Below are positions 1-44,558 of a DNA stretch of 64,000 nt, piece by piece. Position 1 is the first letter of the stretch. The number at the start of each line of letters is the position of its first letter. Below the pieces are notes generated by a model. That model made no database searches. It was not told the origin of the DNA and saw nothing but the letters and a program-made list of their open reading frames with translations. A program made the position numbers and the translations under genes. Source of the stretch: Bretschneidera sinensis (lineage: Eukaryota > Streptophyta > Magnoliopsida > Brassicales > Akaniaceae); assembly GCA_023935145.1 (NCBI GenBank), contig CM043698.1, positions 21,506,001 to 21,570,000 of the forward strand, given 5' to 3'.

Positions 1-6667
<6,667 letters not shown>

Positions 6668-29474: not shown

Positions 29475-31105
29475 ATTGAACAGTAGGTTGAAGCTAATAA
29501 AGCTTTAGATCGAAGAGATTGGGGCCAATAAAACCACTCAAAATGGGAAAACTTGTAGTTTCTTTCTGACAAACCAAGTTCTTCCAAATTAAAAATGACC
29601 TCTATTTCTCCACTTGTGAATGATAAGAAACCATATAATTCTACGTAGAGAATTTTTACATAGTTTTACCTAAAAAAATTATGTAGTATTGAGTTTTTTT
29701 TGCATTTTTCCTCCATCTAAAAGTTGCAATGAGTGTTTTAATACTTTTTTTTGTTATAGAAATTGTACAATTTATGTAATTGAAAGTTAATAATGGATTG
29801 ATTCTCCTGTGGACGTAGACAAGAGGTGTCGAACCACGTTAAAATTTTTGTGTTTATTTTTTCTTTAATTTTACTATTGTCATTGTTGATTGTGCGACAG
29901 AATTCTAAAAAAAAATTGTTAAGAAGGTTGTTAATATTGACAAGAAATATTAAGATTGTTAACATTGACAAGAAATGTTAAGAAGATTGTTAGTATTGGG
30001 AGTCATCTTGAAGGGCTCGAGTGCAGGATCATGTTGCTGTGATGATAATTAATTTTGCAGGAGTAATTAGTGCAATTCGTTGCGGGAAAGGGAGCTAGGA
30101 GTTAGGACATGCATGTAACCCCCTCTGTTTCGGGAGTTACGTTCCATGGTTTTCTCAATACACTTAATTTCATAGAGAGAGCGTTAGAATAAAATATTCA
30201 GCCAACATTCCTTGAATTATTTCATAAAGTTGCATTCTTTAGTATACCACAACTAATCTCTGTTGTATGGGTATGAGGTTCCAAGTTGAAATCTCCAAAT
30301 ATCTCAAATTATTGTAAATTATTAACAAAATCTTTATAGTAACTTTTTATTGTGATGACTCACAGAGCATATGGATAGTCTAAATGAAGAAAAATCATCA
30401 TATATATTCATGATCAAATGAACCTAAAACCAACTTTGACCAGCTTTTGAGTCCGTGGGTTCGATCTTTTACCATGTCATTTGGGTTTTGCCCACTTTAG
30501 AGCTTTGGTAATGACATTTTCTGCTGATAAAGTTTAGAATGTGTGTTGGTTCTAATAATAAAAAAAATAATAGTGTTGGACAAATGAGTATCACTTGCTG
30601 TAGTGAGAAAGTTCTTAACTTGGGGGATCAGATCTTCTGCAGTTTGGATCTTGTCCAGTTATGTTATTGGTAGTAAATTCGACTACCACATCATTTAAAA
30701 GCACATCCTGTTCAGACTTCAATTGTGTTGTTGATGTAGCAATTGAATCTACCAACTGGACATGATCCTAACTGCACCACCGTACAAAATCTCTAATTTT
30801 AGAGGATTTTGGTCCCTTAACTTAGTATACCAATAGGTAACAGTCATTGCTAGCTGAATTTTCTTTTTAAATAAAAAAGGTAGAAACAACATATTTTACC
30901 CAACAAAGGATGGGTTTATTCCTATTAACGTTACATAATTAGTTCATCCATCACTCCACAAAGAAGTGAATGGAAAACATTTAGGCAAATATGACAATAG
31001 GACTCCTAAACAACATATTTTACCCAACAAAGGATGGGTTTATTCCTATTAACGTTACATAATTTCGTTCATCCATCACTCCACAAAGAAGTGAATGGAA
31101 AACAT
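29475..31105. other. Spacer between the 95-codon ORF and subtilase copy 2
   Basis: Aligns closely with 54715-56180 in unit B. No gene recognised. It ends in the 3' flank of copy 2, including a 124-bp tandem duplication. Confidence 0.6.
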
Positions 31106-31131
31106 TTAGGCAAATATGACAATAGGACTCC
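30884..31131. repeat. 124-bp tandem duplication, 3' flank of copy 2
   Basis: The unit beginning aaacaacatattttaccc at 30884 repeats at 31008, covering the stop codon and 3' flank of the subtilase. Copy 3 has the same duplication, interrupted by copia 4; copy 4 has one unit. Confidence 0.92.
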
Positions 31132-31391
31132 AAACATTGTGCTTTCCATCTGACCATATAAGCGACGCACAGATCTTGTGATTAACTGCTAGTGGTCTTC
31201 CAGATACTCTCACACGAAACTGCAATTTCTCATTTAATGATTTGAATGATAAGATTTTGGGAGTAACACTGAACTGAGATGAGAAAGGAAGTTTGTTTTT
31301 GCTTTGTAAATGGAATTAGGCTTCCCTACGTTTGTGACTGTTCTTGGAAACAGCACACTGAAATTCTTCTTTGTTTCCACTTTAAAAGACA

Positions 31392-35992: not shown

Positions 35993-36370
35993 GTGCTCTA
36001 CTGCTCTGTCTTATGGTCATCCATCTTGATTTGTTTGTTGGTTCCCCACTAACCAAAGCTTGGCTGTGCAAAATTGAAATTTTTATAAGTTGTTTGCAGA
36101 TATGAATCAACACGTCTCAAGCATGCATTGGTGGATTTTATTGGTTCAAAAGTGAAAAGACCCTCTTTGTTAAATGTTGCTTACATTTCAGTACAAAATC
36201 TCTAATTTTGGAGGATTTGGTCCCTTAACTTAGTATGCCAATACGTAACAGTCATTGCTAGCTGAATTTTCTTTTTAAATAATAAAGGTAGAAACAACAT
36301 ATTTTACCCAACAAAGGATGGGTTTATTCCTATTAACGTTACATAATTAGTTCATCCATCACTCCACAAA
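35993..36370. other. Short spacer between copies 2 and 3
   Basis: About 200 bp of subtilase upstream sequence (to near 36190) joins directly to the 3' flank of copy 3 (gtacaaaatctctaatttt). The large intergenic block seen next to copies 1 and 3 is absent here. Confidence 0.75.
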
Positions 36371-36375
36371 GAAGT

Positions 36376-36730
36376 TGTTGGTAATTTGCATCAGGTGTTG
36401 CTGTACCACTTCTCATTGTTTGCTGCTGCACCACTCTGTCCTTACTGTCCTTGTTAGCTGCTGTCATTACTACCCCTTATCAGCTGCATTTACTACCCCA
36501 TGTTCTTTGTCATTACTAGCCCATGTTATCTGTCATTACTACCCCATGTTAGCTGTAACATGTGTTACTTGTTTATGTTTACTTTTTCTGTAGCTTTACT
36601 TTTTAGTTATATAATGTAAGCTTATGCATTATGATAATTGAATTCATAGTTTGAGTTCTAGTTTATCTTCCTCTTATTTCTCTCCTTGTCCTAAGTAAAC
36701 TCTTGTTCTTTCTTTTTTTAAAAACTAACA
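36376..36730 (+). repeat. 5' LTR of copia 4
   Basis: 355-bp LTR. About 65 bp longer than the 3' LTR owing to extra copies of a cattactaccccatgtt repeat (36460-36560). Confidence 0.93.
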
Positions 36731-36772
36731 ATTGGTATCAGAGCTATATTCTTGAGGGATTTGTAAGTCCAT

Positions 36773-39214
36773 TTGAGTGTTCTAATGGAAGGAGAATCCA
36801 GTTTTTCATCAATGGCTCCACCAGTTTTTTATGGTGACAACTATCAAATTTGGGCTGTGAGAATGGAGACCTATCTAGATGCAATGGATCTTTGGGAAGC
36901 TGTAGAAGAGGACTACGAAGTTCTTCTTCTTCCAAACAACCCCACAATGGCCCAGATCAAGAATCACAAGGACAGAGAAATGAGGAAGTCAAAAGCAAAA
37001 GCCTGTTTGTTTGCTGGCGTCTCATCGACTATCTTCACCCGAGTCATGTCACTCAAATCAACAAAAGCAATCTGGGATTATCTCAAAAAGGAGTATGAAG
37101 GAAATGAGAGAATCAGAGGGATGCAAGCGCTGAATTTGATCAGAGATTTTGAACTGCAGAAAATGAAGGAATCAGAAACCATTAAAGAGTATTCTGAAAA
37201 ACTTCTAAGCATTACCAATAAGGTAAGACTGCTTGGTTCTAATCTACCCGACTCGATGATTGTTGAAAAAATCCTAGTAACGATGCCTGAAAAATTTGAG
37301 GCAACCATTACAACCTTGGAGAACACCAAGGATCTGTCCAAGATTACCTTAGTAGAGCTCGTAAATGCTTTACAAGCACAAGAGCAAAGAAGTGTCATGA
37401 GGCAAGAAGGAGTCGTTGAAGGAGCACTGCCAGTCAAGCATCAAGAAGGCTGGAAAATGAGGAAGAAGAACAAGAAGATTTTTCCAGCAAATGGCGATGC
37501 TACAGCAAACACCAACAAGAACAAGACTGGAGGTACGAAGGGAAATCATCCTCCATGCCAACACTGTGGCAGAAAGGGTCATCCTCCTTTCAAATGTTGG
37601 AGGAGACCTGATGCAAAATGCAGCAAGTGTAACCAACAAGGTCATGAAGCTGTGATTTGCAAAAGCAAAAATCAGCAGCAAGAAGCAGATGCTCAAGTTG
37701 CTGACCAAGAGGAGGAGGATCAGCTCTTTGTTGCTACTTGCTTCTCAGACAATGATTCAAGTAAGAGCTGGTTAATTGATAGCGGCTGCACCAACCACAT
37801 GACCAATGACAAGGAACTCTTCAGAGATTTAAGGCCAACTGACATTACTAAAGTCAGAATTGGCAATGGTGATTACATCTCTGTCAAAGGGAAAGGGACA
37901 ATCGCCATAACCAGCACTGCAGACACAAAGAGAATTTCTGATGTTCTCTACGTACCAGAAATTGACCAAAATCTGTTGAGTGTAGGTCAATTGATTAAAA
38001 AAGGCTTTAAAGTGATCTTTGAAGATAGTTTCTGTCACATTCTTGATGTCAAGGGTCAGGAAATTCTTAAAGTGAGAATGAAGGGAAATAGTTTTTCTTT
38101 TGATCCCATCAAAGAAGAACATGTTGTATTTTCAACTAGAAGCCCAAATGAAGTCAAGGCAAGATATGAAGTTCTAATTAAGGCCGAGAAGCAACCTCCA
38201 TGGAGCCATCCTGATGATCAAAATATGTCATGTGGCCCACTCTGCCATCAAATGGTTCTGAAGTCAGAAAGAACTACTATGGTGAGCTCTCCTAGAAATG
38301 GTGATATCGAAGGAAAATCTGTTCCTTCATTTGATGGTTCTAGAGCTCAGATATCATCTAGGAAGAAATTCTTTGGCTCATCTGCTAGGAGGAGGCTAAA
38401 GTGCTGGCAAAGCGAAAGTGCTTCCTCAAATGAGAAAAATATGTCAGAGAGCAGTAACTCAGAGATTGGACCCCAGCAAAACACCTCTACTGAGCACTTA
38501 GCATCCCCCAAGACTAAGCTTGGTGGAAAATGTGGAAGTTATAAGAGGAACAACAAGCGAGTTGCTGAACGTGTTGTACTTTGCATGCAGAAAAGACAGA
38601 TGAAGATGGTAGCTTCTGATTCTATTTCCATCGCCAGTGGAAGTCTTTCACCAAGTGATATGAAACTTAGATCTAATTCACGCAAAGAAAATGAAGATGC
38701 TACTTCTTCGTCGCATAAGCATGTGAAATCTGGGAGCAGTGGAAAGTCTAGGAGGAAGGAATGGTCAATTCAAGACACTCACAATTCAATGCAGAGTGAA
38801 GTTCACGATGGTTCATCCAGTGAGATGATTACTGATCCACCTGCAACTAGTAGTGATGACACTTCGATGAAAGAGGAAGAGAAGGCCTCAAAGAATGAGG
38901 ACAATGAAGAACAAGATGTTTTTCCTTCCAAGGAAAGTGTCACTGAGATGGTTGGCAGTGCAGATATGCTTGAAGTTGATAAGGAAGTTGTTAAGTACAA
39001 TGAGAAGCTGGAGAATATTGATCTCTCCCTATTACTTAGGCCCGCTACTGACATTCGGCTTGAGGCTACTCAGTATTGTATCCAGAAACAGGATCAAGAT
39101 GAGGCAGAGTTAAAGAAGAAAGATTTTTTGAAGAGCTCAAGAAGATGGACTTTCTGCAGCAGCAAGGAATTCATTCCTACCTATGGCAGCAGTGGCATTA
39201 TGACTACAGTATAA
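36773..39214 (+). CDS. Gag-protease fused in frame to Polycomb E(z)-like segment
   Basis: Single open frame of 813 codons; a second ATG at 36785 ([13 protein letters not shown]) is the likely Gag start. Residues 5-300: copia Gag ([18 protein letters not shown]) and two knuckles, [14 protein letters not shown] and [14 protein letters not shown]. Residues about 330-460: protease, [14 protein letters not shown], through [14 protein letters not shown], where copia polyproteins normally enter the integrase zinc region. From about residue 470 to 697 the sequence is unlike pol: [61 protein letters not shown] and [15 protein letters not shown] recognise this as the region between the MCSS zinc site and SANT2 of plant CURLY LEAF/SWINGER methyltransferases. 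SANT2, CXC and SET are absent. The last 117 residues are of unknown origin. Recognition is from memory. Confidence 0.8.
38866..39214 (+). other. C-terminal tail of the chimeric ORF, origin unknown
   Basis: Following SDDTS the frame continues with an acidic, Lys/Glu-rich stretch ([19 protein letters not shown]) and a less biased end ([15 protein letters not shown]). It matches neither copia pol nor the part of CURLY LEAF that I recall as following this point. It could be a second captured exon or a frame-shifted remnant. Confidence 0.4.
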
Positions 39215-39261
39215 TTCTTAGGCAGAGACTTGGAATTTGCAGCTCCTAATGCAAGGAGGAG

Positions 39262-39551
39262 TGTTGGTAATTTGCATCAGGTGCTGCTGTACCACTTCTC
39301 ATTGTTTGCTGCTGCACCACTCTGTCCTTATTGCCCTTGTTAGCTGCTGTCATTACTACCCCTTGTCAGCTGTAACATGTGTTACTTGTTTATGTTTACT
39401 TTTTCTGCAGCTTTACTTTTCAGTTAGTTATATAATGTAAGCTTATGCATTATGATAATTGAATTCATAGTTTGAGTTCCAGTTTATCTTCCTCCTATTT
39501 CTCTCCTTGTCCTAAGTAAACTCTTGTTCTTTCTTTCTTTAAAAACTAACA
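39262..39551 (+). repeat. 3' LTR of copia 4
   Basis: 290-bp LTR. By eye it differs from the 5' LTR at about nine sites, mostly C/T exchanges, plus a 4-bp indel. Confidence 0.93.
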
Positions 39552-39693
39552 GAAGTGAATGGAAAACATTTAGGCAAATATGACAATAGGACTCCTAAAC
39601 AACATATTTTACCCAACAAAGGATGGGTTTATTCCTATTAACGTTACATAATTAGTTCATCCATCACTCCACAAAGAAGCGAACGAAAAACAT

Positions 39694-44558
<4,865 letters not shown>

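Follow-up and report, generated by a model that had tools for sequence, protein, structure and literature searches.

A 64-kb window of Bretschneidera sinensis DNA (the whole stretch analyzed here) contains a long terminal repeat (LTR) element at 36376-39551 in which sequence resembling the Polycomb methyltransferase gene CURLY LEAF (CLF) stands where pol would be expected and reads in frame with Gag and the protease region. We consider it likely that this is a non-autonomous Copia element that gained CLF mRNA sequence in reverse transcription, a gene capture like that of the maize element Bs1, and that the captured sequence probably has no host function. All coordinates are positions within the window, and the features described lie on the plus strand, apart from the unstranded target-site duplications. 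An earlier sequence-only reading had proposed that a Copia element captured part of a Polycomb methyltransferase gene. This is supported by the Pfam matches, by the target-site duplication and an empty site, and by the match to CLF, made against a working reference sequence rather than a database entry.

CLF-like sequence in frame with Gag and protease

Translation of the element gave a single open reading frame (ORF) of 809 codons from its first ATG (36785-39214), comprising Gag, the protease region, the CLF fragment and a further segment. The sequence-only reading had described a fully open fusion of 813 codons; the frame is indeed open throughout, and that length applies when it is counted from a TTG at 36773. 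The four protein motifs quoted in the same reading are all present in the translation. Using Pfam, Copia Gag was found as Retrotran_gag_2 at 36863-37402 (residues 31-210, E 5e-39) and a Pol_BBD/protease region with the motif DSGCTNHMT at 37769-38008 (residues 333-412, E 5.2e-29), the latter also aligning with two further Copia-like ORFs of the window. DUF4219 was above the Pfam cut-off as well (E 9.9e-9), and DUF1759 (E 0.036) and PIG-L (E 0.14) fell below it. The Pfam scan of the ORF gave no integrase, reverse transcriptase, RNase H or SET match. The other frames, scanned in pieces only (38803-39054 on the minus strand, 38895-39110 and 39103-39246 on the plus strand), gave no match above the curated cut-off. 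Given that neither the ORF nor the scanned pieces matched integrase, reverse transcriptase or RNase H, the element is classed only as a non-autonomous Copia derivative. When the ORF was compared with the window by tblastn, the five other matches all fell within residues 19-431, and no other stretch of the window matched residues 457-813 (limit E 0.01).

The CLF-like segment was compared with working reference sequences of Arabidopsis CLF (AtCLF) and part of SWINGER (SWN), which are not database entries. The main piece (38183-38878) corresponds to AtCLF 297-518, that is, the second half of MCSS and a linker; the BLASTP alignment starts five residues earlier, at AtCLF 292. Residues 441-813 of the ORF matched CLF with 159 bits (E 6e-47, 110 of 238 columns identical), compared with 22 bits (E 0.10) for the partial SWN sequence. 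The local score against CLF was 446, where 500 composition-preserving shuffles had a mean of 56, a standard deviation of 9 and a maximum of 104; against SWN it was 53, with shuffles averaging 47 and reaching 94. Judged by these scores, the segment is of the CLF type and not of the SWN type.

A short piece of 12 residues at 38147-38182, near the junction with the protease region, corresponds to AtCLF 232-243, with a score of 37 that none of 5000 shuffles reached (maximum 32). In the element, AtCLF 297-518 follows immediately on 232-243, and the intervening 53 residues (244-296), which we take to contain the initial half of the cysteine cluster MCSS, are missing. The joint between the two pieces, AAG|GCC, is in frame and of a kind common at exon joints, and the gap could represent one or more exons skipped at an AG|G joint. 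Similarity to CLF ends at about 38878, presumably ahead of the SANT2, CXC and SET domains. Compared with a CLF/E(z) methyltransferase, the ORF has no SET domain by Pfam and an incomplete MCSS cysteine motif.

Both CLF pieces are in frame with Gag-protease and occupy the place of pol. This agrees with the earlier description of about 690 bp standing in frame where integrase, reverse transcriptase and RNase H were expected, since 38183-38878 is CLF-like and none of those domains was found in the ORF. The description of this sequence as the MCSS-to-SANT2 part of CLF/SWINGER needs correction: the segment is CLF-like but not SWN-like, lacks the first half of MCSS and ends before SANT2.

Element boundaries and the empty site

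The span 36376-39551 is a complete LTR insertion. The limits proposed in the sequence-only reading are exact, as both the LTR ends and the GAAGT on either side agree with them. Comparison of the flanks identified GAAGT at 36371-36375 on the left and 39552-39556 on the right as the target-site duplication, and a single copy is present at an empty paralogous site. Alignment of the LTRs defined a 5' LTR of 355 bp (36376-36730), with TG...CA ends and a 23-bp unit repeated in tandem about four times (36462-36573), and a 3' LTR of 290 bp (39262-39551), with one unit (39348-39390). The two are identical in 278 of 286 aligned columns. All eight differences are transitions, and the Kimura two-parameter distance is 0.029. 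The alignment has two gaps, of 69 bp (equal in length to three 23-bp repeat units) and 4 bp, and the 65-bp difference in LTR length results from the different number of repeat units together with the 4-bp gap. A primer-binding site, TTGGTATCAGAGC, which we take to be of the initiator tRNA-Met type, was recognized by eye at 36732-36744, as was a polypurine tract, GCAAGGAGGAG, at 39251-39261. The paired LTRs with TG...CA ends, the short target-site duplication, the primer-binding site, the polypurine tract and the Copia-type Gag and protease region are those of a Copia LTR retrotransposon.

When the element and one of the two GAAGT copies were removed and the flanks joined, they were identical to 30908-31027, the empty paralogous site, at 120 of 120 positions, and matched 30782-31268 at 96.9% over 487 columns. 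The stretch 56013-56239 also spans the insertion site without the element (95.2% over 227 columns). Since these paralogous sites lack the element, it has truly inserted, into one of the copies of a locally duplicated sequence. The surroundings were aligned with their paralogs, and five such alignments contained 76 substitutions and 7 indels in 2764 aligned positions (two pairs of the aligned stretches overlap in the window), a divergence similar to that between the LTRs.

The flanking stretches recur in the window (30884-31136 and 56013-56239), mostly at 95-97% identity. Some 124 bp are duplicated in tandem at the insertion site (36292-36375 with 39552-39722) and in at least one paralog. The window is AT-rich (34.9% GC) and plant-like. 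It also holds several ORFs that we take to be Copia-like and tandem copies of a presumably subtilase-like sequence. One of the Copia-like sequences, so assigned from its motifs, has an open stretch of 583 codons at 1992-3743. The statement that every other element here is riddled with stops is thus roughly right and, given this ORF, overstated.

The segment downstream of CLF

The CLF-like sequence is followed by a coding-like segment of about 340 bp, or about 110 residues (38879-39218). The ORF frame had the best codon score in all 19 of the 60-base scoring windows starting at 38850-39120 (24 were scored), although its score was near zero at 39015-39030 and another frame was higher at 39135; the last of these windows overrun the ORF stop. 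The score penalizes stops in the other frames and is only a rough sign of coding. Modeled alone, 38870-39118 was predicted to form a helical hairpin, with a mean predicted local distance difference test (pLDDT) score of 79.2 and a predicted template modeling (pTM) score of 0.34. The segment gave no convincing family or structure match in Pfam or PDB, and a PDB search with 38858-39106 gave no match at E up to 10. A match to an RNA polymerase chain in PDB (E 1.3) was taken as chance. As in Bs1, more than one gene may have been captured, this segment being a piece of the second. A tail that is open in a different frame (39103-39246) might represent what is left of the Copia Pol C-terminus or, if an indel has occurred, the correct frame, but the codon scores give that frame no preference over the ORF frame.

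Probable route of capture

We infer an RNA route with template switching, mobilization in trans and a lack of host function. Copia RNA and host CLF mRNA would have been packed in the same virus-like particle, where reverse transcriptase would have jumped from its template into CLF and then back. Residues 244-296 were probably already missing from the CLF RNA because one or more exons had been skipped, or else an extra switch removed them. The product would then have been integrated at this site by enzymes that an intact relative provided in trans. Template switching between co-packaged RNAs appears the simplest route because the priming signals and Gag are kept, pol is gone and the host coding sequence is sense and in frame; the LTRs, primer-binding site, polypurine tract, gag and protease region are all retained.

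No intron-like interruption occurs across approximately 700 bp of collinear CLF-like coding sequence. The CLF gene of Brassica rapa has 17 exons (16 introns), with a coding sequence of 2,715 bp in a 4,406-bp gene (PMC8361648). At the average exon length of that gene, 700 bp should span several introns, though exon sizes vary. Capture from a spliced CLF transcript is plausible on these grounds. There are documented cases both of plant LTR elements capturing genes and of template switching between RNAs packaged together (PMC13317346, PMC3726574), abnormal template switching is known in the plant elements Veju and BARE (PMC13317346), and the mechanism is treated further in PMC7264820.

Several points weigh against this account. 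The CLF and SWN sequences were working references rather than database entries. Intron loss is probable, as judged from the Brassica gene, but capture might instead have taken place at the DNA level. The account does not cover the approximately 340 bp after CLF. No second copy of the element was found in the window by blastn (the matches were the element itself and its two LTRs), hence there is no sign there of amplification after capture. Reviews place Bs1 under read-through transduction and not template switching (PMC13317346, PMC8616336), so more than one known route has to be weighed for the element here.

Searches of viral contigs with the CLF, Gag-protease and downstream-segment queries, and of prokaryotic genome contigs with the CLF query, gave 3, 3, 47 and 33 pattern matches, respectively, and no confirmed relative. 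As these collections hold viruses and prokaryotes, the absence of relatives says little about plants.

Capture by read-through transduction from an element in or near CLF, or at the DNA level by recombination, gap repair or a nested pseudogene, strikes us as rather unlikely. One large parental exon could contain most of the captured span, and read-through is the route given for Bs1 in the two reviews above, but the in-frame, collinear jump of 53 residues at an AG|G joint suits spliced RNA better. The piece also sits inside the element, between the protease region and the polypurine tract, where simple read-through would need a second step. That the resemblance to CLF arose by chance or low complexity, in what would be ordinary retrotransposon sequence, is barely credible. 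Such a view could draw on the use of a comparison sequence that is not a database entry and on the lack of a Pfam match above the cut-off in the CLF segment, where only weak PIG-L matches were seen (E 0.063 to 0.14). A PDB search with 38150-39211 likewise gave no match at E up to 1, and a kinesin match of the CLF segment (E 0.37) was taken as chance. Against it stand the score of 446, far beyond the shuffle maximum of 104, and the presence of a second, collinear CLF piece.

The open frame and possible effects on CLF

The chance that the frame would stay open without selection was estimated by a neutral simulation in which the ORF was mutated at random (2000 trials per setting, with 85% of indels assumed to shift the frame). 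With 0.0144 substitutions per site, which is half of the distance between the LTRs, the ORF stayed open with a frequency of 0.2955, 0.0185 and 0.0005 for 0, 0.1 and 0.2 indels per substitution. The corresponding values were 0.5305, 0.108 and 0.0285 at half this divergence, and 0.084, 0.0015 and 0 at double. The indel rate of the surroundings is about 0.1 per substitution (7 indels to 76 substitutions in local paralogs). The matching value, 0.0185, and the 809 open codons speak for a Gag-protease-CLF fusion that is translated and that selection maintains, either as a host protein or to the benefit of the element. We nevertheless regard such selection as highly improbable. The chance rises to 0.108 at half the divergence, to 0.30 without indels and to 0.53 with both changes, and the age of the insertion is uncertain because there are only eight LTR differences. 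The element was also chosen for study because it is open, and SET, CXC, SANT2 and half of MCSS are missing from its CLF part. As evidence of constraint, the open frame is weak.

One possibility is that element RNA gives rise to small RNAs against CLF and lowers CLF in trans. About 700 bp of CLF-like sequence lie between the LTRs, and in rice and sorghum some of the genes captured by LTR elements were suggested, from an analysis of small RNAs, to be under negative regulation (PMC3726574). The CLF piece is in sense orientation, however, and we think this outcome unlikely. It is very unlikely that the locus is expressed and that a Gag-CLF product or small RNAs lower CLF or Polycomb repressive complex 2 (PRC2) activity, as a selfish counter to the element's own silencing. 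The element that bears on this idea, EVD, is a Copia element. In Arabidopsis ddm1 the H3K27me3 gained at transposable elements depends on CLF, and EVD transcription and transposition are higher in ddm1 clf, as an outlier with no global rise in transposable element expression (PMC8616336). As CLF restrains EVD, a Copia element might benefit from a CLF fragment that lowers CLF. An effect at the RNA level would be likelier than an enzymatic one, since the captured part has no SET domain.

Comparison with known systems

With CURLY LEAF, the plant E(z) protein, the element shares residues 232-243 and 297-518 of the AtCLF working reference, and differs in having an ORF without SET, CXC or the SANT2 region and with an incomplete MCSS, the domain places being those we assume. 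The TR-GAG elements of plants are, like the element here, LTR elements that have gag but no pol and are not autonomous; to our knowledge, their definition does not include a captured host gene, unlike this element. Bs1 has lost most of its pol, and, as in Bs1, host coding sequence stands between the LTRs, judged against the CLF working reference. Bs1 carries pieces of ATPase, xylan endohydrolase and glucanase genes and is reported to be expressed as protein (PMC13317346, PMC8616336), whereas the element here carries a CLF piece. The genes captured by LTR elements in rice and sorghum (672 and 1,343) resemble it in that LTRs enclose the sequence of host genes; some are expressed or have small RNAs, and chromatin terms are over-represented in sorghum (PMC3726574). 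Those are annotated genes inside LTR elements, whereas here a fragment is fused in frame to Gag-protease. A thin search of open-licence papers gave, among the titles listed, none on a CLF-carrying element, and the available part of one review names CLF only as a silencer (PMC8616336).

Gene capture of this kind is already known, and the element is a further case. It is a well-bounded one, in which sequence of a host chromatin gene replaces pol in frame with Gag and an empty paralogous site confirms the limits. Should it be expressed, one could test directly whether a captured fragment acts back on the gene it came from, in this case the Polycomb methyltransferase that restrains EVD in DNA-hypomethylated Arabidopsis (PMC8616336).
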